A stretch of 64,000 bases of DNA. It comes from Bacillota bacterium (lineage in GTDB: Bacteria > Bacillota > Clostridia > Peptostreptococcales > Anaerovoracaceae). The notes under the pieces were generated by a model. That model had not been told where the DNA came from. It worked only from the letters and a program-made list of their open reading frames with translations, and searched no databases. A program made the translations under genes and the position numbers. The first letter of the stretch is position 1, and each line of letters opens with the position of its first letter. The stretch spans positions 38,076 to 102,075 of the forward strand of contig JAFRJI010000037.1 in NCBI GenBank assembly GCA_017432345.1. The letters run 5' to 3'. Below are positions 26,635 through 52,801 of this stretch, one piece after another.

Positions 26635-28365
26635 TCACCGCAACGATTTTCTGAACGCAAGACAGCATCCAATAGCCAGCAGTGCCGCCGCCATCCCCAT
26701 AAATGCAAAAGCTAAGTGCGCCTCATCGCCGGTGATAGGGCTGCTGTCTCTGTACTCCTGAGAATTTTGCACTTGTCTGACCGGTGTTGAGGTCTTGGCC
26801 GGCGTCTTTTTTTGGATGTCTTCTGCCGGCGTTATTTCATCGGTCGGCGTTTCTTCGTCGCTGATTTCATTCGCCTCGATTGGCGTCGATTCGTCCGACG
26901 GCGTCGTTTCCTCGGTTGGATTAGTCTCGTCAGTCGGGTTAGTCTCGTCGGTCGGTGTCGTTTCGTCGGTCTCTTCCTGCTTGTTCAGCAGTTGGTCCTC
27001 CGAAGATGGTTCGGTCGGTTCTTCGCTTTCCTCCGTCGGCTCCTCCGGCTCCGGTTCCGTGATGAAGACTGTTTGCGCCTCATCATCCAGATCTTCGTGC
27101 GAAGCAATCAGTTCCTCACCCAGATACAGTCGTTCGAAGGCGACCAGTGCTTTCCCGGCAAGTGAGTCACTGTCGATCTCAAACTCGATCTCCACCGTTC
27201 CGCTCGCCTCTTCCGGTGTAAAGTTCACGCTCTTCTCTGAACCTTCCAGTTCCGTGTTGCTTTCTTTGTCCATCAGTCTGCCCGTGACGGTATACTCTTC
27301 GCCCGGCGTCAAGCCACTGTAAGTGACCTCATCCACGATGGTCACGGTTCCGTTGGCTTCGATTTCCTTGTCTCCGCTCTCCTGCTCCGAGGCGGATGTC
27401 CGGATCTCCGGTTGTCCGCTATCTTCTGAAGTGCCCCACTGGATCTCAAACGCTACGCTCCGCTTTTTCTCCAATCCAAAAACGACATTCTGCTTTCCGC
27501 TCTTCCGAATGATATACGCCTGGAAACCGCTCGGTGTTCCCTTGAGTTGCGGCGACTGATAGGTCCCATCTTTTTCAAGCTCGGCGGTAAATCGGAAGTT
27601 GTCCCCGGACGAAATGGTGACAGACTCTGCATCTTCAGGGCTGAATATTTCTTCCTCCCCGTTCGCTTTGCACCGGATCAATTTCGTCTCTTCAGGAATC
27701 GGCACCTGAATACTTTTTCCGGAGTCCGCTTTCAGCGTGATCGCCGGCGTTTCCTGCAGATCGGTTTCCTCATTGATGCTCGCTTTGATGACGGTCTGAT
27801 CCAGTCTCAGCTTGCTGTCCTTTGGCGGAGCCGGCCATTTCTGGATCTGTTTCATGACCCGCTTCAGCATCTTCTCCGAACTATCACTCAGCCCTTTGAA
27901 CGCGTCAGATCCGGAGCTTTTGTTGTCGTACGCGTAACTGAGCAGCAAATGGCTCAGCACATAATTCCCGCGGTTGCCCTTGAAACAGTCTTTCCGGTGG
28001 ACCCCCTTGAGATACTTTTCCGTCTTCAGCTCGAATCCCGGATAACCGTAGGAGTAATACAGCACCTTCCGGACCAAGGCGTCATTGTAACGGACCGCGG
28101 CATGCTTTCCCCTGCCCATCAGATCTTTCTTCGGCTCCACACAGTAAGCGTTCCATTTCTTCTTGTTGTACTTCACGTAAAAATCGTGGGTGTGAAAATA
28201 TTCATAATCGAGCATTTTCGTATAGCCGTACCGCACCGTGATTGAGCCGGACGCAAACGCCTCCTCCATGGTGACGACCCCGGCGCTGCTCCAGCACATC
28301 ACGAACATTAAAAAAATGGCGATCCCCCTGCGCAAATCGAGCCCCTTTCTCTTTTTGCTAGTCAT
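26635..28365 (-). CDS. Wall-anchored adhesin with TED-like and VaFE domains
   Basis: A 576-residue surface protein. A signal peptide of about 40 residues is followed by a thioester-domain-like region with a Cys (KKWNAYCVEPKKDLMG, about residue 75) and NYVLSHLLLSYAY where the Gln-bearing TQ motif of genuine thioester domains would be. The middle is a beta region. A VaFE repeat follows (TIVDEVTYSGLTPGEEYTV to LVAFERLYLGEELI). A Thr/Glu/Pro spacer made of repeated TDETNP- and TPTDE-like units leads to a sorting signal SPITGD, a helix and RKSLR. It would be cross-linked to the wall by a sortase. The start is the ATG after GGGGAG, 20 codons inside the longest frame. Confidence 0.87.
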   Translation of the reverse strand: MTSKKRKGLDLRRGIAIFLMFVMCWSSAGVVTMEEAFASGSITVRYGYTKMLDYEYFHTHDFYVKYNKKKWNAYCVEPKKDLMGRGKHAAVRYNDALVRKVLYYSYGYPGFELKTEKYLKGVHRKDCFKGNRGNYVLSHLLLSYAYDNKSSGSDAFKGLSDSSEKMLKRVMKQIQKWPAPPKDSKLRLDQTVIKASINEETDLQETPAITLKADSGKSIQVPIPEETKLIRCKANGEEEIFSPEDAESVTISSGDNFRFTAELEKDGTYQSPQLKGTPSGFQAYIIRKSGKQNVVFGLEKKRSVAFEIQWGTSEDSGQPEIRTSASEQESGDKEIEANGTVTIVDEVTYSGLTPGEEYTVTGRLMDKESNTELEGSEKSVNFTPEEASGTVEIEFEIDSDSLAGKALVAFERLYLGEELIASHEDLDDEAQTVFITEPEPEEPTEESEEPTEPSSEDQLLNKQEETDETTPTDETNPTDETNPTEETTPSDESTPIEANEISDEETPTDEITPAEDIQKKTPAKTSTPVRQVQNSQEYRDSSPITGDEAHLAFAFMGMAAALLAIGCCLAFRKSLR

Positions 28366-28533
28366 CTCTCTTTCATCTCCCCTTTCTGTTTGGTAATATA
28401 TGGTTGTACTTACTATTATTACCATTTATTGCCAATTTGTCAACCTGTTTTTTCTTCGCAAGATGGACACACTGATAGGCGGCAGCTCTTTATTGTGATG
28501 GAAAGGTCAAGTGATATATGCATGTCATGGGAA
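28366..28533. other. Upstream region of the adhesin gene
   Basis: AT-rich spacer between the adhesin start and the hairpin-repeat array. On the minus strand the stretch around 28400-28430 carries TAATAA-like motifs but no clear promoter. No open frame in it has a ribosome binding site. Confidence 0.4.
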
Positions 28534-28926
28534 AGCTTGGACAGATCTGAGAAATGATGAGTGTTTGTCAATTGAATGGATTATCATTTTGATTGAAAGC
28601 TTGAACTAATTCGTGAAATGAAGAGGGCTTGTCAAGTTTAGCATTAAAATGGATGGTCATTTTGACCTAAAATTACAGTTGGCTTGAACTAATTAAGCAT
28701 GAAGTATGAGCTTGTCAAGCAAAATCCTAAAATGCATTGACAACTGGAGCTCTCAGAAAGATAGTGTACAAGCTCGGGCCAGTTTCAGGCTAAAATAACG
28801 GCTGTTAAACGGTCAAAACTTGACAGATCCGAGAAAAACCAATGAATTGTTCAAGTTCCAAACGACTGTTGAAGAATTAGAACATGACAGATCTGAGAAG
28901 AATCAATGAATTGTTCAAGTTCCAAT
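28534..28926. repeat. Array of five degenerate hairpin repeats
   Basis: Five related units begin near 28534, 28598, 28681, 28818 and 28881. The last two are nearly identical over about 45 bases (GACAGATC-x-GAGAA followed by AATGAATTGTTCAAGTTC). Each unit starts with CTTGRAC or CTTGACA and ends with TTGTCAAG or TGTTCAAG, so each can fold as a hairpin with a CTTGA/TCAAG stem and a loop near 30 bases. Spacing is irregular (63-137). No long open frame crosses the array. Units 1-3 are more diverged than 4-5, suggesting old and recent duplications. Confidence 0.7.
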
Positions 28927-28938
28927 GTGGATGCACTC

Positions 28939-28999
28939 AAAAAAATAGGAAGCAGGTGCAGGTATACCGTGATGCCCTCACGGCTACAGCTGCACCTGC
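28939..28999 (-). terminator. Second terminator-like hairpin downstream of the orphan cobalamin riboswitch
   Basis: Minus-strand two-tier hairpin: outer stem GCAGGTGCAG / CTGCACCTGC (10 bp), inner stem CCGTGA / TCACGG, followed after six bases by seven U. It is unusually long for a simple terminator and could be a stable end of a small RNA. Confidence 0.8.
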
Positions 29000-29004
29000 G
29001 GATG

Positions 29005-29034
29005 AAAAGGCGCGCTTCGGTCTTCCGAGCGCGC
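29005..29034 (-). terminator. Expression-platform terminator of the orphan cobalamin riboswitch
   Basis: Minus-strand stem GGCGCGCTCGG / CCGAAGCGCGCC followed by UUUUC, about 65 bases beyond the aptamer. Its position fits a transcription-termination riboswitch. Confidence 0.85.
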
Positions 29035-29099
29035 CCTGTTATTTTCGATACATAATCGATACATAAAAATAACCGCCGTCTTACCTCAGAAGACAAACT

Positions 29100-29297
29100 T
29101 TGTTGATCAGACAGGTCTACCGACTGTACCCTTCAGGAAAGATCCCTTCCCAGCCTACTGAGGCGCCTTCCCAGAATTCTCGTTCCAGTGACTTGCCAAA
29201 TGGCGTGCCCGTTCGTAAGGTTTCACGGTTGCTGAGACACAGTGCCGGATTTACACCGGCTTCCGATATTGTCTTGATCGCTTCATATTCTTTTTAC
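29100..29297 (-). promoter_or_regulatory. Cobalamin riboswitch without an adjacent gene
   Basis: Minus-strand aptamer. GAAGCCGGTGTAAATCCGGC and the CACTGTGTCTCAGCAACCGTG stretch (about 29222-29262) form the conserved core; the B12 box AGTCGGTAGACCTGTCTGA lies at about 29104-29122. The core is almost identical to that of the riboswitch at 52560-52745. Two terminator-like hairpins and then the hairpin-repeat array follow, and the first protein gene on this strand starts about 730 bases after the aptamer. What it regulates is unclear. Confidence 0.93.
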
Positions 29298-41234: not shown

Positions 41235-41263
41235 ATTATACGTCATTCCGGACAAAAAAACAA
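41235..41263 (-). promoter_or_regulatory. Promoter of the murE operon
   Basis: Minus strand TTGTTT, 17-base spacer, perfect TATAAT, 37 bases before the murE start. The -35 box overlaps the U-run of the xth terminator, so terminator and promoter are interlocked. Confidence 0.65.
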
Positions 41264-41284
41264 TGCGAACCGTAATTCGCATTG
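41254..41284 (-). terminator. Terminator of the cobalamin operon/xth, with a duplicated half
   Basis: Minus-strand stem CAATGCGAA / TTCGCATTG (9 bp, loop of six) followed by seven U. A second copy of the right half (AACCGTAATTCGCATTG) lies immediately beside it at 41285-41301, so a 17-base direct repeat could form an alternative stem. Confidence 0.88.
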
Positions 41285-41307
41285 AACCGTAATTCGCATT
41301 GTGCTGT

Positions 41308-42060
41308 TTACTTTAATTCCAGCGTCACCGGGCAGTGGTCGCTGCCGTAAACGTCCGTCAGGATCTCCGCCCCGGCAAGCGATTCCTTCAGCGCCTCGGA
41401 CACCAGGAAGTAGTCGATCCGCCATCCCGCGTTGTTGGCGCGGGCGTTGAAGCGATAGCTCCACCAGGAATAGACGCCTTCCAGGTCCGGATAAAAGTAC
41501 CGCCAGGTGTCGATGAATCCGGCGTCCTGCAGTTCCGTCATCTTTCCGCGTTCTTCATCGGAGAACCCCGCATTGCCGCGGTTGCTCTTCGGATTTTTCA
41601 GGTCGATTTCCTGATGCGCCACATTGAAATCGCCGCAGGTGATGATCGGTTTCTCTTTTTCGAGCTTTTTGAGATAGCTGCGGAACGCATCCTCCCAGCT
41701 CATGCGGTAATCGATCCGCTTCAGCCCGTCTTGCGCGTTCGGCACGTAGACATTGACCAGATAGAAGTCCGGGTACTCCAACGTCAGAGCCCTGCCCTCG
41801 TGGTCATGCTCGTCGACGCCGAGGCCTTTGCTCACGGATAGCGGTTCTTCTTTGGAGAACACCGCGGTTCCGGAATAGCCTTTCTTCTCGGCGGAATACC
41901 AGTATTGATGGTAGCCGTCAAGCGGCACTTCCGCCTGCCCTTCCTGCATCTTCGTTTCCTGTATGCAGAGGATGTCCGGATCCTGTTCCGTCACAAATTC
42001 CAGAAATCCTTTTTTCATCGCGGCACGGATGCCGTTCACGTTCCATGAAATGAGTCGCAT
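41308..42060 (-). CDS. xth: Exodeoxyribonuclease III / AP endonuclease
   Basis: A 250-residue EEP-family nuclease. MRLISWNVNGIRAAMKKGF at the N-terminus, LCIQETKMQEG, GDFNVAHQEIDLKNPKSNRG and the terminal GSDHCPVTLEL, with Asn, Glu, Asp and His of the metal-dependent active site. It repairs abasic sites. The start ATG overlaps the upstream stop by one base. It is the last gene of the transcription unit headed by the cobalamin riboswitch, by spacing alone; there is no functional reason to link it to corrinoids. Confidence 0.96.
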   Translation of the reverse strand: MRLISWNVNGIRAAMKKGFLEFVTEQDPDILCIQETKMQEGQAEVPLDGYHQYWYSAEKKGYSGTAVFSKEEPLSVSKGLGVDEHDHEGRALTLEYPDFYLVNVYVPNAQDGLKRIDYRMSWEDAFRSYLKKLEKEKPIITCGDFNVAHQEIDLKNPKSNRGNAGFSDEERGKMTELQDAGFIDTWRYFYPDLEGVYSWWSYRFNARANNAGWRIDYFLVSEALKESLAGAEILTDVYGSDHCPVTLELK

Positions 42061-42827
42061 CAGATATATCCTTTCTCTTTGAGCCAATCAAAGGATCCCC
42101 CGTCCGCCAGGATCTCAGCCGTGACCGTCGTCGTCGCCGGGCACTTTTCGATCATGCCGTCCAGCAGGCGTTCGATGTCGAGGGCCCCTTCCGTCAAAGC
42201 GCGGTGGTAATCGCGCTCTCCGTCATTGTTGTGTATGTGGAGGTGCTTCAGGTATGGAGCCAGTGTTTCCAACCACTGGTCCTGGCCCACCTCGCTGATG
42301 ATATTGGAATGGCCGACGTCGTAACATATTCCGATCCGCGGATCGTCGGCGTCCCGTGCGATCGCGGCGAGCATGTCCGGCTCGTCGTCCAGGACGTTTT
42401 CGATGGCGATCTCGAAGTCCTCCGGCTTGTCTTCCATGAACTCGGTCCAGAACTCCACCGACCTCGAAATGTGCCATTCCTTGAAATAGACATGGGGCAT
42501 GAACCCCGAGTGGACCACCATCTTTTTGACATCATAGCTGATGGCCAGATTCGCCGCCTGCTGGAGCCGGTCCATGGCAAGCTGTCTGGCCTTCGGGTCA
42601 ATGGCCGCCGGGAACAGTTCATTGAACGGGGCGTGAAGAACGAGTCCTTTGTACTTTTCCAGGCTTTTGCGGATGACCGCTTCCACCTTTTCGCCCTTCG
42701 CGCCGTCCATGTTCTCCGCCTGGCAGTACTGATCGAGTTCGATGGCAACGCCGTACTCCTCCGCGATCTGCTGCCATTTACCACACATGGTGGCTATCGC
42801 CAATCTTGATTGTATATTTCTATCCAT
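42060..42827 (-). CDS. Sugar-phosphate isomerase/epimerase-like TIM barrel
   Basis: A 255-residue xylose-isomerase-like TIM barrel: LVLHAPFNELFPAAID, KKMVVHSGFMPHVYFKEW, IAIENVLDDEPDML, GICYDVGHSN and HLHIHNNDGERDYHRAL provide the His, Glu and Asp metal ligands. Family members include sugar epimerases and endonuclease IV-like enzymes; the substrate is unknown. It lies 19 bases after the second EcfT gene, and its stop overlaps xth. Confidence 0.88.
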   Translation of the reverse strand: MDRNIQSRLAIATMCGKWQQIAEEYGVAIELDQYCQAENMDGAKGEKVEAVIRKSLEKYKGLVLHAPFNELFPAAIDPKARQLAMDRLQQAANLAISYDVKKMVVHSGFMPHVYFKEWHISRSVEFWTEFMEDKPEDFEIAIENVLDDEPDMLAAIARDADDPRIGICYDVGHSNIISEVGQDQWLETLAPYLKHLHIHNNDGERDYHRALTEGALDIERLLDGMIEKCPATTTVTAEILADGGSFDWLKEKGYI

Positions 42828-42846
42828 ATCGTCACTCCTGTACTCG

Positions 42847-43734
42847 TCATTCCTGTACGGTTTTTCTCGTGCGTTCGAATGCTCTTTCCCCTGCGATCTG
42901 CAGACCCATCGGCAACAGCAGCAAAGCCGCGTACGCCGCGTAGAACACGCCGGACACCGGCGTGATCCGGTTGAATATGATCTCCGGATCGTAGAGTATG
43001 GTCACCTGATCCAGCAGGATCGCCATGGTCATCAGCGTCAAGCAGAGAAAGAGGATGACCACGAAACTTCTGTCGCGGTTATCGAACCGGTATATGCTGA
43101 AAGCGGTCCTGCCCCGGAGCGAATAACCCCGGCTCTTCATGGACTGGGTGCTTTCGATAAAGTTTTCCAGGGTCCAGGTGATCAGGATCGAAATGAGCCT
43201 TACGAGGTTCAAAAATCTCCTGCCGATGTTTCCCTGACGGTACCCTTTGCCGACTCCTTCCTGGGAAATCTCGATCCGCCTTGCCGTCTGTTTGATCCGC
43301 GGCACGCTCCTGAGAAGGATCGACAGGAACAGCGACAGCTTCGGCGAGATGCGCCCGAACATATAGACAACCTTGTCGGAGGAAACCACCGCGAAGAAAC
43401 AGCTCATCCACATGATCACCGCCGCAACGGTCACCGCGATCACGAACCCGTACACGATCGATTCCAGTGTCATATCGTTCCCGAAAAAGTTCTGTCCCAG
43501 GACCGTCACCCCGAAATGGGTATAGTAGGAATACCAGAGAACGTACAGCACCATCAGCGGAATGAGGACCAGATCGAAGATCAGTCCCCGTTTCCCGTTC
43601 AGTTTCACGGAATACAAAAATGCGGCAACATAGGATATGGCCAGAAAAACAGGATGGTCAAACCAGATGGTGCACGTTATGGCAGCCGCGAAAAATATGA
43701 AGTTGATTGCAGGATGGTAACTGTCGAATCTCAT
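42847..43734 (-). CDS. ecfT: ECF transporter T component, second copy
   Basis: A 295-residue membrane protein with about six helices and the EcfT coupling motif SMKSRGYSL near residue 195. It is a paralog of the T component at 46111-47022: both begin with YHPAINFIFF/YNPAINFLFY, have SSDKVVYMFG/TSDKFMYLFG, and share GRTAFSIYRFDNRDR/KRTSFSIYRFDSRDK. T components join the S component to the ATPases. A possible start upstream overlaps nothing, and the ATG at 43734 is used. Two T genes in one operon are unusual. Confidence 0.93.
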   Translation of the reverse strand: MRFDSYHPAINFIFFAAAITCTIWFDHPVFLAISYVAAFLYSVKLNGKRGLIFDLVLIPLMVLYVLWYSYYTHFGVTVLGQNFFGNDMTLESIVYGFVIAVTVAAVIMWMSCFFAVVSSDKVVYMFGRISPKLSLFLSILLRSVPRIKQTARRIEISQEGVGKGYRQGNIGRRFLNLVRLISILITWTLENFIESTQSMKSRGYSLRGRTAFSIYRFDNRDRSFVVILFLCLTLMTMAILLDQVTILYDPEIIFNRITPVSGVFYAAYAALLLLPMGLQIAGERAFERTRKTVQE

Positions 43735-43757
43735 ATTTCAATATCAATGATCCATGA

Positions 43758-44492
43758 TCAATTATCCATGAGCCCGTACTTCACCTTGATCCGTTCGAGC
43801 TTGTCGCTGATCGGTTTGCAGAGGATGAGCAAAGTCAGTCCTGTCACGACCGCGTGGATCGCGTTGACTGGAACGCCAGCCGCGTAGATGGCCAGCACTG
43901 ACGAGCCCGGCTCATACATGGTGCTCATGAGGAACACCGTACAGGTATCGAGGAGCGGTCCGATGAGAACGAAGATCATGACGGCGCCGATGATGGCGGT
44001 CCTGACTCTCTTCTCCGGACTCATGATCCCCTTCTTGCCAAGGAGCCCTGCGATGAACCCCGCCAGTCCGTAGGCGAACATCTGCCACGGCGTCCACGGC
44101 CCTTGTCCGAAAATGAAATTGCTCACAAAGGCTCCGATGGCGCCCGTAAGAAATCCCGCTTCCGGACCCAGACAGATGCCGGTGATCATGATGATCCCTA
44201 TCATCGGCTTGATGTTCGGAAGCATGATAAAAGCTGCCCTCGAAATGACGGCGATCGCCGTCATGACAGCCAGCGTCACTAGTTCCCTGGCTGAGGGCTT
44301 CCTGTGTTCAAAGCTGAGAAAGAACGGGATCATGGCGATGATCATCACGATCACGCTGACCAGGTAGAACTGCCGGTCCCCGATCTTCCAGGAAATCAGC
44401 AGCGCGGCGGGTATCGCGAGTACGATGATCACGACACTCAGAATTTTGCGCGCGCTGAGGCCCTTTTTGTTTGTTACAGGTTCTTTTTGCAT
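43758..44492 (-). CDS. ECF transporter substrate-binding (S) component
   Basis: A 244-residue membrane protein with about seven helices. The ECF S-component pattern is seen in RELVTLAVMTAIAVISRAAF, the GIIMITGICLGPEAGFLTGA loop and NFIFGQGPWTPWQM; PWTPWQMFAYG is shared with many vitamin S components. The cobalamin riboswitch upstream suggests it takes up cobalamin or a precursor, in the manner of CbrT. The N-terminus of about 20 polar residues precedes the first helix. It overlaps the end of the ATPase gene by 19 bases. Confidence 0.9.
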   Translation of the reverse strand: MQKEPVTNKKGLSARKILSVVIIVLAIPAALLISWKIGDRQFYLVSVIVMIIAMIPFFLSFEHRKPSARELVTLAVMTAIAVISRAAFIMLPNIKPMIGIIMITGICLGPEAGFLTGAIGAFVSNFIFGQGPWTPWQMFAYGLAGFIAGLLGKKGIMSPEKRVRTAIIGAVMIFVLIGPLLDTCTVFLMSTMYEPGSSVLAIYAAGVPVNAIHAVVTGLTLLILCKPISDKLERIKVKYGLMDN

Positions 44493-46138
44493 AATTCTAT
44501 TACATCCTCATTGGTGATGGCGTTGGTGAACAGATGACGGCTCATCCGGTTCGCCGCCGTCGTGTAGAAGCTGTTCTTGGAGAAGAATCGGTGCGGCGTG
44601 TTGCTCGTGATGACACCTCCATCAAAGAACATGCTCACGGAATCCGCGTACCGCGCGCAAAATTCCACGTCGTGCGAAACCATGATGATGGTCACGCCTT
44701 TCTCCTTGAGCTGATTCAGGATCTTCGCGAACTGGAGCTTGAAGAAATTGTCCATGCCCTTCGTCGGTTCGTCCAGAAGCAGCACGTCCGGTTGGGTGAG
44801 CAATACTTTCGCCAGCGCGGTCCTCTGCTGCTCACCGCCCGAAAGGTCATACGGATGGCTGTCGAACAGGTGCGCGATGTCGCATACTTCCGCGACTTCG
44901 CGGATGAGGGTCTGGTTGTCTTTCCCTTCGCACATCTCCGCCAGTTCTTCGCGGACGGTTTTCTTCACGAAGAGGCTTTGCGGATCCTGCGGCAGCATGG
45001 CCGTTTTCACGCCTTTATCGATCAGGATCTTTCCCCGGTACGGCTTGCAGATGCTGCAGATGCACTTGAGCATGGTAGATTTGCCCGTTCCGTTGCCGCC
45101 GACGATGGCAAAAATGCTGCCCCGTCCGACCTGGAACGACGTCCCCTTCAGAACATCCGGGGCGTTTTTCTCATACCGGAACCACACTTCTTTCACGGTG
45201 ACCACCGCGTCTTCGATTTCTTCCCATTCTTTCTCCGCAACGGCCGTTTCATGCAAAGGCTCACTGCCCGCATGCGGGAAGACGGCGCTGAGCCAGTTCC
45301 TTCCTTCCCGTACGGTGAGCGGACATTCATAGACGGCGTCGCCGCTGAGGGCTTTGCGCTCAAGATCGTCCCGCACGCCGTAGAAGATCTGGACCGGAGA
45401 CGGCATGGCGGCGAACATTTCACTGTTCTCGCCTTTGAGGAATTCGCCGACTTTTTTCGGTTCGTCGTCGGCGATGATCCTGCCTTTATCCATGACGACC
45501 ACCCGATCCGATGCGTGGAAGATGTCTTCGAGCCGGTGTTCGGTGATGATGATCGTCGTGCCCAGTTCGAGATTGATCTTCCGGACGGTGTTGAGAAAAT
45601 CCGATGCCGCGATCGGATCCAGCTGTGACGTCGGTTCGTCGAGAATCAGAACGGAAGGCTGCATGGCCATGATCGACGCCAGATTCAGAAGCTGTTTCTG
45701 GCCGCCCGAAAGCTCCGCCACGTCCTTGTGGAACCATCCCTGTATGCCAAAATAGCTGGCCATTTCGGCCACCCTCAGGCGGATGGTGTTCTGGTCTTCG
45801 CCCAGACTCTCGAGCCCGAACGCCAGCTCGTGCCAGACTTTATCGGTCACGATCTGGTTGTCGGGGTTTTGCATGACATATCCGATCTTTGACGACTGGG
45901 TCCGCAGATCGGCCTGTTCCAGCGGCTTCCCTTCGAAAAGGATCTCGCCGGACCGTTTGCCGTGCGGCGTCAGAACGCTCTTGAGATGCTTGAGCAGCGT
46001 GGTCTTGCCGCTTCCGCTCTTGCCGCATATCGTCACATATTGTCCCTGCTGTATTTCGAGATTGATGTTGTCAAGAACCAGCCGATCTTCTGCCGCAGCA
46101 TAAGCAAAGCTTAGATCCCTGATCTCAAAATGCGCCAT
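44474..46138 (-). CDS. ecfA: ECF transporter fused double ATPase (EcfA1-EcfA2)
   Basis: A 554-residue protein with two ABC domains in one chain. Domain 1: Walker A GKSGSGKTTLLK, ABC signature LSGGQKQLL, Walker B VLILDEPTSQLD. Domain 2 from about residue 310: GGNGTGKSTMLK, LSGGEQQRTALAK, VLLLDEPTKGMD. The two halves drive import through the T and S components. The start at MAHFEIRDLSF, after GGGAGG, is 64 codons inside the longest frame; the earlier part lies in the EcfT gene. It overlaps EcfT by 28 bases. Confidence 0.96.
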   Translation of the reverse strand: MAHFEIRDLSFAYAAAEDRLVLDNINLEIQQGQYVTICGKSGSGKTTLLKHLKSVLTPHGKRSGEILFEGKPLEQADLRTQSSKIGYVMQNPDNQIVTDKVWHELAFGLESLGEDQNTIRLRVAEMASYFGIQGWFHKDVAELSGGQKQLLNLASIMAMQPSVLILDEPTSQLDPIAASDFLNTVRKINLELGTTIIITEHRLEDIFHASDRVVVMDKGRIIADDEPKKVGEFLKGENSEMFAAMPSPVQIFYGVRDDLERKALSGDAVYECPLTVREGRNWLSAVFPHAGSEPLHETAVAEKEWEEIEDAVVTVKEVWFRYEKNAPDVLKGTSFQVGRGSIFAIVGGNGTGKSTMLKCICSICKPYRGKILIDKGVKTAMLPQDPQSLFVKKTVREELAEMCEGKDNQTLIREVAEVCDIAHLFDSHPYDLSGGEQQRTALAKVLLTQPDVLLLDEPTKGMDNFFKLQFAKILNQLKEKGVTIIMVSHDVEFCARYADSVSMFFDGGVITSNTPHRFFSKNSFYTTAANRMSRHLFTNAITNEDVIELCKKNL

Positions 46139-47022
46139 ACTACTTCCTCCCTGATATTGATAAATGTAGGTATTGCCAGTAAAACGAAATATGCAATCAG
46201 CCCTGTAACGGTGTACGGGTTGTCTGTACCCGGAATGCTGAGTGCCGGTGTGAAGGTGGTGCTCATGCCGCCCTTGAGGCCGCAGATGAGTACCGCCGCG
46301 ATGAGTATGATCATGAACGCCATAAGGCATTTGTCCCTGCTGTCAAAACGGTAAATGGAAAAGCTCGTCCGCTTGCCGCAGCCGTATCCTCTGCTCCGCA
46401 TGCTGTCCGCGGTGATGATGCCGCCTTCCAGCGCCCAGCTCGTGAGAGCGGAAAGGATGGTCGCGCCGTTCTGGAAACGTTTCTTCTTCGTGTCCTGCGC
46501 GCCGCCTTTGCCGATGCTCTTTCGCGCGCCGGCGATCTGCCTTGTCTTGGCGATGTAGTCCGGCACGAACCGGAGGACCATCGTCAGAACGAGCGTCACG
46601 GAAGGAGCCATCGCTCCGAACAGATACATGAACTTGTCGCTCGTCATCACGACGTTGTAGGATGCGAACCACAGGATGATCGACACGAACATGGCGCCGA
46701 TCGCCATGCCGTAAAACAAAGCCTCCAGCGTATACGGCCTGCCGCCTGCCCAGGTGAACAGCACGTGCTCGCCGTACTTGTTGAGCAGCGGATTCAATAC
46801 GGATATTATAACAAAGACCGGGATGAGTCCAAGGATCAGTTTGAACGCCCTGGCGCCTCTGATCGTAATATAGTACGCTGCTGCCAGCACACACGAACAT
46901 AACAGAAAAACGGGATGCACAAAGAACATCCCGAAAACGATCGCGCTTATATAAAACAGGAAATTGATCGCCGGATTATATTCGGAAAACGCATTTCTGT
47001 TCTGATCGTCATCATGATTCAT
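46111..47022 (-). CDS. ecfT: ECF transporter T component, first copy
   Basis: A 303-residue membrane protein with about six to seven helices and the coupling motif DSMRSRGYGCG. A charged segment RKSIGKGGAQDTKKKRFQ lies in the cytosolic loop. It shares much sequence with the second copy at 42847-43734. It overlaps the preceding surface-protein gene by 11 bases and the ATPase gene downstream. It would form the energy-coupling module with the ATPases. Confidence 0.93.
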   Translation of the reverse strand: MNHDDDQNRNAFSEYNPAINFLFYISAIVFGMFFVHPVFLLCSCVLAAAYYITIRGARAFKLILGLIPVFVIISVLNPLLNKYGEHVLFTWAGGRPYTLEALFYGMAIGAMFVSIILWFASYNVVMTSDKFMYLFGAMAPSVTLVLTMVLRFVPDYIAKTRQIAGARKSIGKGGAQDTKKKRFQNGATILSALTSWALEGGIITADSMRSRGYGCGKRTSFSIYRFDSRDKCLMAFMIILIAAVLICGLKGGMSTTFTPALSIPGTDNPYTVTGLIAYFVLLAIPTFINIREEVVWRILRSGI

Positions 47023-49603
47023 CGGTATCTCTCCTGCGCCAGACTCTGAAAATCACGATCAAGATGAGCGCAATCAAAGCGAGCACGGCAACCGCAGCGA
47101 GGATCCATGGCAAAATCGATGGTTGCTCCTCACTGACGTCCTCTGGTTCCACGACGGTAAGCAGATCATCGAAGGTTCCGTTCATGCCGGCAATGCCATA
47201 GATCGAGAATTCGATCGCGTTGAATTCGATGACATTGTCCTCGGTGTCGCCTGCCAGGAACTCGAGCTTGCCGCCTTTACCTATGTGATAAACGATTGCA
47301 TCTTCAAGTCCGCCAAGATCAGGCACGTTGAGTCTGACACGGACGACTTTCTTCGGATGCCACGCTTCGTTGGTCAGCGTGTTGATGAAGCTGATGTCAT
47401 AGGTGCTGAGCACGGCGCTTTCTTCGCCCAGCTCACCCGTGATCGCCGCTTCCTGATCTTCGGTCAGAGTTTCATCCTCCACCACGAGCAGAATGTACCA
47501 CGGAAGTGCCTTCGCGCTGCTGTTGGTCAGGTCGACTCCCGTTGCCTCGTCGAAATGATTCTTCTTTCCAAAAGCCGAAATGAGGTCTTTGTACTTTTCC
47601 CATATTTTATCTTTACGGACCGCCAGCTTTTCCGCCGGGCTGAGATCCAGATACGCTCTGTATGCTTCCCTCGCGGCCTCTTCACTGCCGCTGGCAACGG
47701 CCGCCTTCACTAAAGCAATGACGTCCTTCGCGGCACTGGTAAGATCGAGCTTCAGCGTGATGGTCTTGCCGCCCGGTTTTGTCTTTCCGGACGGTTTATC
47801 CTTATCTTCGTCGCTCTCTTTCTCTTCATCATCGTCTTTCTTCTCGCCCGGCGTGGCCGTGGTCTTGGACAGGGATTCAACATCGCTCATGTCATAGAGG
47901 CTGGTCTTTCCGCCAATGAATCTCTGGTACGCGGTCAGCGCGTAATTGCCCTGTATCGTAGCCAGTGAATTTTTTCCTGTTTCCGCGTAGATGTGCTTGA
48001 AGCCGCCTGCTACATAGAACGAAAGCAGCGAATCGACGACGCTCTTGCCGTTCTTAACAAATCTCGGATCCGTGTTCGGATTGATTCCCAGCGCACAAAG
48101 GGCGACGATGACCTGTGCCGCGGATTCCGAAGTGACATAGCCGAAGCTGCCGAAATTGCCGTCGGAATCCTGTTGGTCAGACAGCCATTCCAGCGCTTCA
48201 TTGACGGCATCCGTAACATCTTCGTATCCTTCCTTTTTGTAATACGGTGCCAGCGCCTGTAAGGCCATGCCGGTCATGTCTACATCCGACTTGCCACCGC
48301 TGTACGCCCAGCCTCCATCCGATTTCCGGCTGGCAAGCAGAGCGCCGACCAGCTTCTCTCTGGTCGTCTGCATGGAAGGATCTTCATTTTCCGGGATTTC
48401 ATAGCCGTAACTGTCGAAGGCGAGCAGAGTCCATATGATCCCATTGACCCCCTGCCTTGTAACATAGCCCATGTCCGAAAGCGGCTCAAGGAGATTGTAC
48501 CCGTACACGTCGGTCGGATCGATCCCCATCGACGTCAGGGCAATGATGGCCTTCGCGTTGTTGCTCGCCTGATTTTCATTCAGCATGGCAGACTGATTCT
48601 CATTCAGTTCAGTAACCAGACTGGTGCAGTACTGCTCCACATTTTCCTCGGTAAACTGGTCGTTCCGTGAAAGCCCGATCGCGAGAAATTCGGTCCCAAC
48701 ATCCCAATCGGATTTGTTGCCCATATCTTCAACCGTTGCCGAAACCGCCTGGGATGTGGCGATGACCTGCTCATCCGATGCGATGTACTGCGGGAGGATG
48801 CCCCCAAGGATCGCAAGGTCCAGGATCTCTTCATCGATGCCTTCCAAAGGCTCTTCTCCAGCAACGGCTTCGATATCGGCTTCGGCGTCGCCGTCAGCAT
48901 CCGCGTCGGCATCGTCATCCGTATCGGCGTCGGTATCCGCGTCACGGTCGCTGTCCGCATCACCGTCATTGCTGCCGTCACTGTCCGCATCGCTATCCTC
49001 ATCTGCAGTTCCGCCGGCTGCCGGATCCTTCTCCGAATCCAGCTCTTCTTCGAAAGCCACGACTACCGCGTCTTTCTTCTTAAGTTCCAGTTCGAGCGGT
49101 TTTTTGTTCTTCTTTTCCTTGTTGATATATACGACCCATGCTTCGCCCACATCGGCATCCGTCTTAAGGCAGACCGGCTCGCCGTTCTTTTCCGGGCCGG
49201 TTATGCTGATGATCGCACCGTCCTTGTTCTCCCATTTGAACTCTTTTTCCTTAAAGACTTTGTCCAGGAAGTCCTCCAGGCTGCTGCCTTCTTCGACCGC
49301 AACGTCACACTTTTCGATCCAGTCCGAAGCCTTTGCAGACAATGTGAAAGAGACCGTGATCTCGTCCTTTGCAGGTTGATCCGGTTTCTGTGGCTTTGTC
49401 TCCGCCTTTTCCTTGGCCGCCCCTTTGTCTTTTGCCGGTTTAGCCGGAGCCTCCGTTTCCGGCTGGGTGGCCTGTTCCGTTTCTTCGGTGACCGCAGGCG
49501 CAGGATTATCCTGCCCGTCCTCTCCCTCTGCAAAAGCCGCCGACGGCATGTAGGCAAGTATTACCAGTATGATCGTTGTGATGGATATTAATTTCCTGAA
49601 CAT
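47012..49603 (-). CDS. Surface protein: DUF4430, Asp-rich spacer, prenyltransferase-like repeats (intrinsic-factor-like)
   Basis: An 863-residue surface protein. Signal peptide to about residue 25; an Ala/Pro/Lys/Glu spacer; a DUF4430-like domain at about 80-190 (EEGSSLEDFLDKVF, then DVGEAWVVYINKEKK); an Asp/Ala-rich stretch with DADADGDAEAD at about 200-245; an alpha/alpha repeat region at about 285-590 of the prenyltransferase/squalene-oxidase type (VNGIIWTLLAFDSYG, GGWAYSGGKSDVDMTGMALQ, DGNFGSFGYVTSESAAQVIV); a Lys/Asp/Glu linker; a helical segment; a beta domain; and a C-terminal helix with a basic tail. The pairing of an alpha/alpha barrel with DUF4430 is the plan of intrinsic factor. 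It probably binds a corrinoid outside the cell. The start follows GGAG at 49603. Confidence 0.85.
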   Translation of the reverse strand: MFRKLISITTIILVILAYMPSAAFAEGEDGQDNPAPAVTEETEQATQPETEAPAKPAKDKGAAKEKAETKPQKPDQPAKDEITVSFTLSAKASDWIEKCDVAVEEGSSLEDFLDKVFKEKEFKWENKDGAIISITGPEKNGEPVCLKTDADVGEAWVVYINKEKKNKKPLELELKKKDAVVVAFEEELDSEKDPAAGGTADEDSDADSDGSNDGDADSDRDADTDADTDDDADADADGDAEADIEAVAGEEPLEGIDEEILDLAILGGILPQYIASDEQVIATSQAVSATVEDMGNKSDWDVGTEFLAIGLSRNDQFTEENVEQYCTSLVTELNENQSAMLNENQASNNAKAIIALTSMGIDPTDVYGYNLLEPLSDMGYVTRQGVNGIIWTLLAFDSYGYEIPENEDPSMQTTREKLVGALLASRKSDGGWAYSGGKSDVDMTGMALQALAPYYKKEGYEDVTDAVNEALEWLSDQQDSDGNFGSFGYVTSESAAQVIVALCALGINPNTDPRFVKNGKSVVDSLLSFYVAGGFKHIYAETGKNSLATIQGNYALTAYQRFIGGKTSLYDMSDVESLSKTTATPGEKKDDDEEKESDEDKDKPSGKTKPGGKTITLKLDLTSAAKDVIALVKAAVASGSEEAAREAYRAYLDLSPAEKLAVRKDKIWEKYKDLISAFGKKNHFDEATGVDLTNSSAKALPWYILLVVEDETLTEDQEAAITGELGEESAVLSTYDISFINTLTNEAWHPKKVVRVRLNVPDLGGLEDAIVYHIGKGGKLEFLAGDTEDNVIEFNAIEFSIYGIAGMNGTFDDLLTVVEPEDVSEEQPSILPWILAAVAVLALIALILIVIFRVWRRRDTDES

Positions 49604-50793
49604 GTGTAGCTCCAAACGATGCTGTCACCGTCTTTGAGTTTGTATGATGAACACCCGTAATTCGGATACCATCCGTTGACCTTGTACATCCAGCCGGATG
49701 TCTTGCCGCAGTCAAATTCATACAGGTGATTGATTCCTTCTACATATTTCCCTCCATATGTTGGAGAGTTCGAATACTCGAGCTGTATTCCCGCTGCTGA
49801 ACAGACTCGTTTCAGCACATCAAATACCGTATCCCCTTTTCTGAACTGCACCTTGCTTGTGCCAAGTATGACTCCGTTGGCAGGAACGTACTTATCCTTG
49901 CCCGGAGTAAGATTGTCCATGTGTTTCAAAATGGTCTTGCAGTTGATGGATATCGTGCAGGTCTTTATGTTCGACGAAGATCCCGATGATGAGGAAGAAG
50001 ATGATTCTTCCTTCACGACCGCGATCGCTTCCTGCTCCAGCGCTTTGGCAGCCTTCTCCCTCTCCGCCTCGCGGTCAGCCACTACCTTCGCCAGTTCGTC
50101 CTGCGAGAAACAGATGTCGTTTTCGCAAGCCTGCAGCTTCTGGATCATAAAAGCATTGAGGGTATCCGCCTTGAGTTCCAATACGTCGAATCCTTCGTTG
50201 CCATCCTTATCGGTAAAGATCTGCAACTGGCTACCTTCCCCGATCTCCTGCTCACCGCCGGCCGTCTCAACCACGACCTCGCCGCCGTAAACGTTCAGTT
50301 CCGCGCTTCCGGACTGCTTGCTGATCGAAAACACCGCTTCATCGGCCGTTGCCGTGCTGTCTCCAAACGCGACCCGGAATTCCTTCGGGGCTTTTGCAAA
50401 ATTCAGAAACGCCTCGCCGCCTTTGAGGTCCAGCTGCACATTGTCCTGCTCGCAGGTGTCCATCTCCAGTTCGGTCTTCTCACCAAGGGTGAAGGTGTTC
50501 TTGTCCGAAACGGTGAACAGCGCCTCGGACTCACTCTTGGTTTCGACGATATCGCCGGATTCCATTGCGACTCCGTTTTCAAGACTGTAGCCGACATTGC
50601 TGCGTTCCATATTGGCAACGCCGATAACGTCGCCGCTGATCACAGGTGATCCTCCGCCCGGGCTGCCGGGATCATCCGATCCTCCGAACCAGCCTTTGAG
50701 CATCCCAACGGCCAATATGCCGCAGACGACGATGATAGCTATCAGCAGCACCATGATTATATTGGATGTTTTTCTTTTCGCTTTTGTTTCCAC
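49588..50793 (-). CDS. Membrane-anchored FecR-like/DUF4430 protein
   Basis: A 401-residue protein. Residues 1-34 are a basic start and one helix (IIMVLLIAIIVVCGILAVGML), then a Gly/Ser/Pro spacer. A FecR-like beta domain (about 60-210) has GDIVETKSESEALFTVS and GGEVVVETAGGEQEIGEGS. A helix with basic and acidic residues, then a Ser-rich linker, leads to a C-terminal DUF4430 domain from about residue 275: FRKGDTVFDVLKRVCSAAG, INHLYEFDCGKTSGWMYKVN, YPNYGCSSYKLKDGDSIVW. GTG at 50793 is chosen because AAAGGAG lies six bases before it; the ATG at 50847 has no such site. It is a second DUF4430 protein in the corrinoid operon. Confidence 0.85.
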   Translation of the reverse strand: METKAKRKTSNIIMVLLIAIIVVCGILAVGMLKGWFGGSDDPGSPGGGSPVISGDVIGVANMERSNVGYSLENGVAMESGDIVETKSESEALFTVSDKNTFTLGEKTELEMDTCEQDNVQLDLKGGEAFLNFAKAPKEFRVAFGDSTATADEAVFSISKQSGSAELNVYGGEVVVETAGGEQEIGEGSQLQIFTDKDGNEGFDVLELKADTLNAFMIQKLQACENDICFSQDELAKVVADREAEREKAAKALEQEAIAVVKEESSSSSSSGSSSNIKTCTISINCKTILKHMDNLTPGKDKYVPANGVILGTSKVQFRKGDTVFDVLKRVCSAAGIQLEYSNSPTYGGKYVEGINHLYEFDCGKTSGWMYKVNGWYPNYGCSSYKLKDGDSIVWSYTCSGN

Positions 50794-50817
50794 CAGCTGC
50801 TCCTTTAGTAGCAATAC

Positions 50818-50847
50818 ATGGCCAGAGGCATTTTGACCCCTGACCAT
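50818..50847 (-). promoter_or_regulatory. Intercistronic hairpin
   Basis: Minus-strand stem ATGGTCAGGGG / CCTCTGGCCAT with an eight-base loop and no U-run. It lies between the first and second genes of the corrinoid operon, just before the GTG start of the second. It may stabilise the upstream transcript or tune translation. Confidence 0.55.
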
Positions 50848-50900
50848 ATATCGTTATTCTTTTCGTTGACTATATTCAGTAACTGCTGCAGATCACGCTC

Positions 50901-52445
50901 TTACTTGATCGTCACCTTACAGACAGGCGCCATGATAGGAGCGTCCACATCAACTTCTACCACGTCCGGCCAGTTGCTGTAATCATATGCCTTATCAGGA
51001 ACGGTGCCGGATGCTGTTACATAGTAGGTGCCCTTCTTAGCGAACTTGATCGTGGCGTTGCCTTCTTCGTCTGTCGTTACACCTTCCAGCTCAACGAATT
51101 TGCCCTTTTTCCAGGTTCCGATCTTGATATTTTTAACCGGCTTCATCATTGCGCTGACTGCCATTCCCTGGTATCCGCTGAGATTCAGGGTTATTTCAGC
51201 ATTTTTGGATGCTGTTACAGAAGTCTTGTCAAAGGTCGTATACCAGTCTGAATAGTAAACGTCATCCGCATTGATGGATGCATACAGGACATCTCCCTTG
51301 CTGATCGTCGCGTCTCCAACACCGACCGCGAGTGGCCATCCATTCTGGAAGAACAGCGTGTTGAAGGTGCTTACGCCCCAAAGCTTGGTGATGCTTGTGC
51401 CATACTCCGATGTGGCAGTGGCATAACCGGCTTTCTTGTTATAGGTCTTATGTGCGGCTACCAGAGCCTCATTGTATGTGAACATGCCATCTTTGTTGAT
51501 ATCGATGACTTTCACTTTCTGGTTCCACATGATCTTGTTTTTGGTTTTCTTGTTGGTCTTGGCGATCACGCCCTTATTGTTGACGGTCATTTTAACGGTG
51601 ATCGGGGTCGCGGCTTTTGCCTTCTTGACGGTTACCTTGCAGACCGGCGCCATGATAGGAGCGTCCACGTCGACTTCCTTCACATCCGGATAACCGCTGT
51701 AATCATATGCCTTATCAGGAACGGTGCCATACGCTGTTACATAATATGTGCCCTTCTTGTTGAACTGAAGAGTAACGTTGCCTCCATCGTCTGTATAAAC
51801 GGCGTCCATTGGAGTAAATTCACCTTTTACCCAAGTCCCGATCATAACATTCTTAACCGGCTGTACTTCGCTGCCTGCCATTGCCTGGAATCCGCTGAGA
51901 TTCAGTGTGAGTTCTCTCTTCGCATAGACGGTTGCCTTTTCTTTATCAAAGGCTGTGTACCAGTCAGAATAGTAGCTGTCATCTGCATTGATGGATGCAT
52001 ACAGCTTATCGCCTTTCTTGATTTCTGTATCTTTTACATTGCTGGCAATCGGAACGCCGTTATCAAAGAACAATGTATTAAACGTTTCAACGCCCCACAG
52101 TTTGGTCACGCTTGCCCCGTACTCCGTCAATACAGTAGCGTAGCCTGCTTTCTTGTTGTAGGCCTTATGTGCAGCAACCAACGCCTCATCAAAGGACATC
52201 TTTCCATCCTTGTCAAGGTCTTTGACTGTTACTGTCTGGCCCGCCATGATCTTGCCCTCGTTGGTCTTCGCGACGACGCCCTTGTTGTTTACGGTCATCG
52301 TAACTTTAATGTCTTTTGCTGCCGCGCCGTTAATGGCAATTGACTGGTCATCAGCTCCTGCAGCGAACGACATTGTCGGCATGAATACAACTGCCATCAT
52401 CAGGGTCAGTAAAACAGCCAAGAATTTGTTCGACTTCTTCTTCAT
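50901..52445 (-). CDS. Secreted protein of two homologous EF-hand-bearing modules
   Basis: A 514-residue secreted protein and first gene after the cobalamin riboswitch. Signal peptide ends near residue 29 (MSFAAGA). Two modules of about 230 residues follow (about 40-275 and 283-514). Shared features: VTMTVNNKGVVAKTN/VKMTVNNKGVIAKTN, an EF-hand-like loop DLDKDGKMSFDEAL/DINKDGMFTYNEAL, TKLWGVETFNTLFFDNG/TKLWGVSTFNTLFFQNG, LYASINADDSYYSDWYT/LYASINADDVYYSDWYT, and VDVDAPIMAPVCKVT at the end of each. No wall anchor is seen. The start is the ATG after AAGGAG at 52445. I do not recognise the domain; by position it belongs to corrinoid capture. Confidence 0.85.
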   Translation of the reverse strand: MKKKSNKFLAVLLTLMMAVVFMPTMSFAAGADDQSIAINGAAAKDIKVTMTVNNKGVVAKTNEGKIMAGQTVTVKDLDKDGKMSFDEALVAAHKAYNKKAGYATVLTEYGASVTKLWGVETFNTLFFDNGVPIASNVKDTEIKKGDKLYASINADDSYYSDWYTAFDKEKATVYAKRELTLNLSGFQAMAGSEVQPVKNVMIGTWVKGEFTPMDAVYTDDGGNVTLQFNKKGTYYVTAYGTVPDKAYDYSGYPDVKEVDVDAPIMAPVCKVTVKKAKAATPITVKMTVNNKGVIAKTNKKTKNKIMWNQKVKVIDINKDGMFTYNEALVAAHKTYNKKAGYATATSEYGTSITKLWGVSTFNTLFFQNGWPLAVGVGDATISKGDVLYASINADDVYYSDWYTTFDKTSVTASKNAEITLNLSGYQGMAVSAMMKPVKNIKIGTWKKGKFVELEGVTTDEEGNATIKFAKKGTYYVTASGTVPDKAYDYSNWPDVVEVDVDAPIMAPVCKVTIK

Positions 52446-52494
52446 TTTCTTCTCCTTCATGATAAAACGAACAATAACTTTCTCAGCCTCTGAA

Positions 52495-52524
52495 TCAAAA
52501 AAGCGCACATCTCTGAGCGCTTTA
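52495..52524 (-). terminator. Expression-platform terminator of the operon cobalamin riboswitch
   Basis: Minus-strand stem AAAGCGC / GCGCTTT with a loop near 10 bases, followed by a U-run, placed between the aptamer and the first structural gene. Terminator control fits an off-switch on ligand binding. Confidence 0.8.
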
Positions 52525-52559
52525 AACGACATTTCTTGTCTGAACTCAGAAGACTTCTT

Positions 52560-52745
52560 TCAGCAAGCAGGTCTCCCGACTTAGTTCTTCAGCTGCAAAG
52601 ACGGTTCCGCCTTCACAGCAGCCTCAAAGGGAACCTTCCCAGAATGATCTCCAGTGGTTTCGGGCAGGACAGCCTGCCAGTCCCTTTTTGTAAAACATCA
52701 CGGTTGCTGAGACACAGTGCCGGAATCACACCGGCTTCCGAAGTG
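52560..52745 (-). promoter_or_regulatory. Cobalamin riboswitch of the corrinoid-uptake operon
   Basis: Minus-strand aptamer with GGAAGCCGGTGTGATTCCGG and CACTGTGTCTCAGCAACCGTG (about 52699-52745), and the B12 box AGTCGGGAGACCTGCTTGC at about 52565-52583. The core matches the orphan riboswitch at 29100-29297 nearly base for base. It links the operon's regulation to cobalamin. Confidence 0.95.
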
Positions 52746-52772
52746 CTTACTTATATTATTTATTATGGTTCA

Positions 52773-52801
52773 ATAGTAACACTGGCTGTATTGTAAGTCA
52801 A
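52773..52801 (-). promoter_or_regulatory. Promoter of the corrinoid-uptake operon
   Basis: Minus strand TTGACT, 17-base spacer, TACTAT, ending about 30 bases before the riboswitch aptamer. Same -10 form as the promoter of the orphan riboswitch. Confidence 0.75.

Follow-up and report, generated by a model that had tools for sequence, protein, structure and literature searches.

How are corrinoids captured outside the cell by Gram-positive bacteria? Many gut bacteria require corrinoids that they cannot make (PMC7733943), and in the literature searched no account was found of how Gram-positive gut bacteria capture these compounds outside the cell. The question is raised by a stretch of 64,000 nucleotides from a Bacillota bacterium (here called the window; G000:C22:38076-102075), part of a draft genome of 1.8 Mb in 51 contigs that is 82% complete, in which a cobalamin riboswitch is followed by genes for three exported proteins and for an energy-coupling factor (ECF) transporter. 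The evidence collected here makes it probable that this locus is a cobalamin-repressed corrinoid acquisition operon, in which exported beta-domain proteins and a CbrT-like importer are combined with CbiR-like remodelling, and whose regulon includes a further surface protein; corrinoid uptake is its likely role.

Organisation of the operon

The original prediction, made from the sequence alone, described a cobalamin riboswitch heading genes for three exported proteins and for the T, fused A1-A2, S and second T components of a transporter. All of these parts were found on the minus strand, and the coordinates and parts that it gave were right. The apparent transcript continues past the second T gene through a CbiR-like gene and xth to a terminator-like site at 41284-41261. 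The features are, in minus-strand order:

52801-52773, minus strand: promoter-like TTGACT-17-TACTAT overlapping the riboswitch 5' end (consensus match only)
52549..52801, minus strand: cobalamin riboswitch RF00174 (cmscan, 55.7 bits, E 4e-11, gathering score 31.5, model positions 1-189 of 189)
52501..52523, minus strand: terminator-like hairpin and U run between riboswitch and first gene (RNA fold and sequence; OFF-switch geometry; not in the pattern-scan list)
50901..52445, minus strand: first gene, exported protein of 514 aa (translation: signal-like N terminus, then two modules)
49588..50847, minus strand: FecR-like protein ending in DUF4430, a transcobalamin-type beta domain (FecR 42 bits, cut-off 24; DUF4430 76.8 bits, cut-off 23.8)
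47012..49603, minus strand: 863-aa protein (translation: signal-like N terminus, DUF4430-like domain, acidic linker, alpha/alpha toroid, C-terminal region, C-terminal membrane-spanning segment)
46111..47022, minus strand: ECF T component 1, T1 (BLAST kinship to T2-type genes; same place in relatives)
44474..46138, minus strand: fused ECF A1-A2 ATPase (ABC_tran 198 bits; TIGR04520 346.6 bits, cut-off 315; start computed, corrected from 46330)
43758..44492, minus strand: ECF S component, CbrT-like (PF07155 65.3 bits, cut-off 26.7; PF12822 over cut-off)
42847..43734, minus strand: ECF T component 2, T2, CbiQ family (PF02361 26.2 bits, cut-off 25, marginal)
42060..42827, minus strand: CbiR-like protein, cobamide remodelling phosphodiesterase family (NCBIfam CbiR 2e-12; next family 2.7e-4)
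41308..42060, minus strand: exodeoxyribonuclease III, xth, last gene of the apparent transcript (TIGR00633 337 bits; start computed at 42060)
41261..41284, minus strand: terminator-like site between xth and murE (10-pair stem, then T run; pattern scan, whose total was near that of shuffles)

The first gene most likely starts at 52445, which is preferred over the listed open reading frame (ORF) start at 52532 because the latter sits upstream of the hairpin at 52523-52501. The gene for xth is probably a passenger, and the start of murE was computed at 41198. The window contains two RF00174 matches, the only ones in the assembly.

Conservation of the gene set and its riboswitch in relatives

Matches to the S component, weak ones included, were found in 62 of 100 genomes of relatives, and many of the 40 regions fetched around such matches contained the same genes in the same order; since the arrangement recurs in many genomes, it is more than chance. 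In order to avoid selection by the transporter, the toroid domain alone was also used as query in named genomes. This search gave at least 595 stretches, 571 of them confirmed, from which the best-scoring 80 loci were kept, so that these are not a random sample. ECF ATPase and S genes were both present in 61 of the 80, with a T gene on both sides in 19, only before in 38 and only after in four, while several of the 19 loci without both genes lie on short or truncated contigs. Across the 80 loci, matches were found for the FecR-DUF4430 protein in 72, the first gene in 15, the CbiR-like gene in 10 and the surface protein described below (TED/VaFE) in two.

A cmscan at the gathering threshold was performed on 29 of the 80 loci. 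RF00174 was present in 27, and in 25 of the 29 it precedes a toroid gene in the same orientation, at positions ranging from overlap with the listed ORF start to several kb away; the exceptions were L111 (opposite strand), L140 (downstream), and L147 and L122 (no RF00174). Fifteen of the 29 loci, L108 among them, had been picked after earlier riboswitch indications; the 10 of 14 with an upstream riboswitch among the others is therefore the fairer figure. For comparison, 30 genomes with about 64.6 Mb in total gave 50 RF00174 matches with E no higher than 0.001, of which five score below the curated value, so that roughly 0.004 matches would be expected per 10-kb same-strand stretch; the genomes of L076, L082 and L106, three of these 30, gave no match at this level. 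Each of three Ruminococcus bromii genomes had one match (36.5, 27 and 27 bits), whose coordinates place it immediately before the toroid gene; the match in L093 was verified as exceeding the threshold, and the other two are below the curated score. Around the S clusters of 16 relatives, four of which are contigs also among the 80 loci (L035/L074, L037/L088, L038/L075, L040/L073), RF00174 was over threshold in nine (L037, L039, L040, L042, L048, L049, L050, L053 and L055, the last with a downstream match only). No RF00174 over threshold was found in L033, L034, L035, L036, L038, L041 and L054, five of which begin or end inside the operon.

Homologous operons controlled by another ligand would speak against a cobalamin-regulated system. 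Other regulatory RNAs were found in three loci: L083 has a T-box, L107 a lysine riboswitch and L039 a NiCo riboswitch. The latter two are on the other strand, and all three loci also carry a cobalamin riboswitch. Cultured hosts of the system exist, as the toroid-DUF4430-ECF set and the riboswitch occur together in Ruminococcus bromii, Blautia parvula and Lutispora thermophila; the locus fetched from Emergencia timonensis comprises the exported part and riboswitches only.

Some relatives show variant arrangements. Three tandem cobalamin riboswitches were observed at L088:1243-3496. Behind each of the first two lie genes for a Cys-rich zf-like protein (PF04071) and for a lipoprotein-like protein carrying DUF4430 as a solo domain; the copies are identical, which could reflect recent duplication or an assembly artefact. 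Three tandem matches also lie upstream of the operon at L048:6834-8031. In L087 and L117 the toroid gene is divergent from the ECF operon, and in L087 the intervening riboswitch matches are on both strands.

The ECF transporter

A, T and S components, which make up an ECF transporter, are encoded together in the window, T1 being recognised by BLAST kinship only: it gave no Pfam match up to E 0.01 and, as a BLAST query, found the T2-type genes of relatives at about 30-37% identity. When a profile of the S family (25-row alignment) was compared with solved structures, the best match was 6fnp_A (1.2e-16), followed by RibU (3p5n, 2.9e-7) and four others at 0.0048 or worse, so that CbrT is the closest relative of the family among solved S components. 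The matched chain is, we infer, the S subunit of 6FNP, which is the ECF-CbrT complex of Lactobacillus delbrueckii with proven transport of cobalamin and cobinamide (PMC5997447). CbrT shares its ECF module with FolT2 (PMC5997447), whereas the S gene in the window forms one operon with genes for a fused ATPase of its own, for two T components and for the exported proteins.

A different ligand, B12-related or unrelated, such as cobalt, a lower-ligand base, riboflavin or haem, might be taken up instead of a corrinoid. The S component bears a riboflavin-type name in Pfam (PF07155) and, weakly, a folate-type one in NCBIfam, T2 belongs to the CbiQ family that is also found in cobalt transport, and the cobalt importer cbiMNQO of C. 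difficile is itself preceded by a cobalamin riboswitch (PMC11477304). However, the S profile favours CbrT over RibU by about nine orders of magnitude, no CbiM was among the matches listed for the S and T proteins, and a CbiR-like gene and cobalamin-carrier folds are encoded alongside, which makes such a ligand very unlikely.

The exported proteins

The original prediction described the first gene as encoding two modules with EF-hands. The two modules, 68% identical to each other, are clearly present, whereas the EF-hand match is weak (18.6 bits against a cut-off of 25.4), and each module is interpreted instead as a transcobalamin-type beta-grasp domain with an EF-hand-like loop, followed by an immunoglobulin (Ig)-like domain. 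The model, made for module 2, has a predicted local distance difference test (pLDDT) score of 94.5. When it was compared with 350,542 PDB chains by Foldseek, haptocorrin and intrinsic factor ranked first and second, and Foldseek ranks 1, 2 and 6 as well as VIA ranks 1-14 were haptocorrin, transcobalamin or intrinsic factor; in all 14 of these VIA rows a vertebrate B12 carrier is matched through its beta domain, well above the Ig-fold background. A helix (H49-60) followed by a beta-hairpin (E67-71/E74-80) is predicted in the model, in agreement with the definition of the SLBB clade as given in PMC1796856. At the sequence level the family would be a divergent transcobalamin-like form that is hardly recognised by Pfam, DUF4430 being matched in two of 16 members (best 0.012), and intrinsic factor, transcobalamin and haptocorrin were not among the matches listed for the module profile. 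In a viral structure library, Ig-like and phage or virus proteins were among the matches listed. As far as predicted structure can tell, the best evidence for a link with intrinsic factor comes from this gene and not from the toroid.

The second and third exported proteins had both been assigned a DUF4430 domain. This holds for the FecR-like protein, probably anchored near its N terminus by a hydrophobic segment noticed by eye. In the 863-aa protein the domain scores 16.8 to 20.8 bits, below the Pfam cut-off, and is modelled at low confidence; DUF4430 was matched in 11 of 56 members of its alignment (best 1.9e-9). The alpha/alpha domain of this protein had also been likened to that of intrinsic factor, which could not be upheld: the toroid, modelled with pLDDT above 90, scores higher with squalene cyclases than with intrinsic factor and does not appear specifically intrinsic-factor-like. 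Compared with vertebrate intrinsic factor, transcobalamin and haptocorrin, the domain order is reversed, and there is no sequence-level match, none of the three being listed for the profiles of the toroid and of DUF4430 or for a single DUF4430 sequence. PF01122, which we take to be the animal cobalamin binder family, is not among the eight families matched by the 863-aa protein. B12 binding by these proteins, and cooperation between toroid and beta domain, are predictions.

The toroid protein could also be a secreted enzyme under B12 control, terpene-cyclase-like or glycan-active, and not a binder at all. Squalene-hopene cyclases, sugar epimerases and GH105/GH88-type toroids come closest to it both in fold and by sequence profile, and a D-x-D-x-T motif, invariant or nearly so in the toroid alignment (A1), resembles part of what we take to be the DXDD motif of the cyclases. 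On the other hand, all 16 rows of A1 have Met or Ile in place of one Asp of that presumed motif, the toroid is encoded in a transporter operon and appears to be exported (signal-like start in 76 of 79 judged ORFs, by a lenient rule), and it shares an ORF with first-gene-type modules in eight loci and with DUF4430 in the 11 alignment members mentioned above, as in intrinsic factor. An enzymatic role is accordingly considered very unlikely, and a role in corrinoid binding is preferred.

Giant homologues of about 2,600-2,700 aa were observed in two relatives (L043:31-8196 and L047:12166-19956), with several DUF4430-like stretches, two toroid-like regions and, by eye, S-layer-like repeats.

The CbiR-like gene and other B12 genes of the genome

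The CbiR-like gene downstream of T2 had been overlooked in the original prediction. CbiR is the best-matching family of its product, which scores below the NCBIfam equivalog cut-off (47.1 against 105 bits). As in Akkermansia, where CbiR has been described (PMC7733943), the genome contains a cobT/U/S/C-like cluster; the protein in the window differs in lying beside an uptake operon, and its remodelling activity is predicted. The best matches to cobT, cobU, cobS and cobC are grouped on contig C47, with cobT over its NCBIfam and cobS over its Pfam cut-off and cobU and cobC under theirs, a cluster that fits salvage and remodelling. Three genes with B12-binding domains suggest that B12 is used. CbiD was the one corrinoid ring-building gene sought in this 82% complete assembly, and its first half only was matched, between unrelated genes (G000:C31:47648-48082, L168), as either a decayed remnant or an assembly problem; a complete inability to make corrinoids is therefore not claimed.

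The ECF system was considered as the only B12 importer of the genome and rejected as such, two BtuC/FecCD-type ABC systems being present, both without a cobalamin riboswitch in the assembly.

A second riboswitch and a TED/VaFE surface protein

The second cobalamin riboswitch and the gene that follows it, about 690 bases downstream, had likewise escaped the original prediction. The features are:

29115..29264, minus strand: second cobalamin riboswitch RF00174 (43.2 bits, E 1.5e-7, cut-off 31.5, model positions 47-167)
29007..29037, minus strand: strong G+C-rich hairpin with U tail after the second riboswitch (RNA fold)
26635..28425, minus strand: surface protein with TED_2 and TQ/VaFE domains (TED_2 80.8 bits, cut-off 27; TQ 113.3, cut-off 23.8; VaFE 111.3, cut-off 24)

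Within 26635-29264, a long AT-rich leader with near-direct repeats, noticed by eye, separates the riboswitch from the gene.

Homologues were sampled as the 12 best matches covering the TED domain in the 100 relatives (E at most 1.5e-46, own copy excluded). Nine of these 12 (G002, G017, G026, G029, G030, G031, G033, G037 and G048) share a strand with an S gene of this system and lie no more than about 5 kb from it, a count that leaves out weaker hits in the TED region (E from about 1e-23 to 1e-11) and those confined to the TQ part. The homologue in G013 has its own upstream cobalamin riboswitch (53.4 bits), and those in G016 and G027 start at a contig edge, with no riboswitch found in the stretch fetched. 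Since nine of 12 neighbour the S gene and that of G013 has a riboswitch, the surface protein is most likely a member of the B12 regulon. The TED Cys is present in every row covering the YC motif, and the later motif has His and no conserved Gln, the residue which we take to be the usual partner of the thioester Cys.

The presence of this protein in the same regulon as the operon raises the possibility that the importer alone takes up B12 and that the exported proteins, as adhesins or wall proteins under B12 control, bind no corrinoid and use their beta-grasp and Ig-like domains for attachment. Surface adhesins are typically built from domains such as Ig-like, TED and VaFE, and many homologues are long and multi-domain. 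However, what the first gene matches best in structure are cobalamin-binding beta domains in particular and not the general Ig fold, and adhesins alone would not require the toroid, DUF4430 and ECF genes that occur together in the 61 loci. We therefore consider this explanation unlikely and retain that of a corrinoid acquisition operon.

Proposed mechanism

Cobalamin riboswitches usually behave as OFF switches (PMC11477304), and because of this behaviour and the hairpin that follows the first riboswitch, transcription would be let through when intracellular cobalamin is low. Three exported proteins with transcobalamin-type beta domains, one apparently released, one anchored near its N terminus and one, with the toroid, at its C terminus, would then gather corrinoids at the wall and membrane and raise their concentration at the importer. 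Import would be carried out by the CbrT-like S component with the ATPase pair and the two T subunits, after which the CbiR-like enzyme may cut the nucleotide loop of unsuitable cobamides and the CobT/CobU/CobS/CobC-like set rebuild a usable one; the B12-controlled surface protein would be part of the same regulon. B12-controlled surface capture and import, as originally proposed, is well supported by the riboswitch link, the CbrT kinship, the intrinsic-factor-type beta domains and the CbiR-like neighbour, and the proposed handover from released to anchored binder and then to the ECF transporter is something that we only infer. Rather more doubtful, and put forward tentatively, is a complete B12 regulon in which secreted, N-anchored and C-anchored binders hand corrinoid to the CbrT-type importer, the CbiR-like enzyme remodels it, and a possibly covalent, riboswitch-controlled adhesin holds the cell at a corrinoid source, for instance host or microbial B12 carriers.

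Relation to known systems

The original prediction knew of no described system with precisely these components, yet the basic idea had already appeared as a prediction in 2007. Burroughs et al., who defined the SLBB superfamily, reported bacterial surface proteins combining toroid and SLBB domains, whose operons also contain CbiO-like and CbiQ-like genes. They predicted these proteins to be B12 scavengers and further proposed low-GC Gram-positives as the source from which animals obtained the domain (PMC1796856). The window is an instance of that prediction, sharing with those operons surface beta-grasp proteins, often toroid-fused, a second paralogue, a CbiO-like ATPase, a CbiQ-like membrane protein and a low-GC Gram-positive host. 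It adds a CbiR-like gene, a second T component, a B12-controlled surface protein and the divergent modules of the first gene, and what is new here comprises the riboswitch link, the cryptic beta domains, the CbrT kinship, the remodelling gene and the B12-controlled surface protein. The word riboswitch is absent from the main text of PMC1796856, which predates CbrT and CbiR. Apart from that paper, the arrangement was not found in a literature search covering mostly open-access titles and openings of abstracts. The B12-scavenging prediction of 2007 thus becomes directly testable by binding and transport, and the exported proteins can be named as candidate bacterial relatives of the animal B12 carriers, which bears on the proposed acquisition by animals (PMC1796856).

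Surface capture ahead of import also has a parallel in Gram-negative bacteria. The BtuG and BtuH proteins of Bacteroidetes have different folds and act at an outer membrane with TonB-dependent transport, while the operon in the window has an ECF importer and no outer-membrane parts were seen in it. They are likewise extra surface binders ahead of a B12 transporter (BtuH, PMC8941943).

A further arrangement was observed in Emergencia timonensis (L150:12601-20755), where a MotA/TolQ/ExbB-type gene stands behind a second cobalamin riboswitch, together with genes for a repeat protein of 1699 aa and for a protein whose DUF4430 match falls just under the cut-off; this hints at proton-driven surface transport. 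The window's genome has an ExbB-type gene, 46% identical to that of L150, beside a BtuC/FecCD-type cluster.

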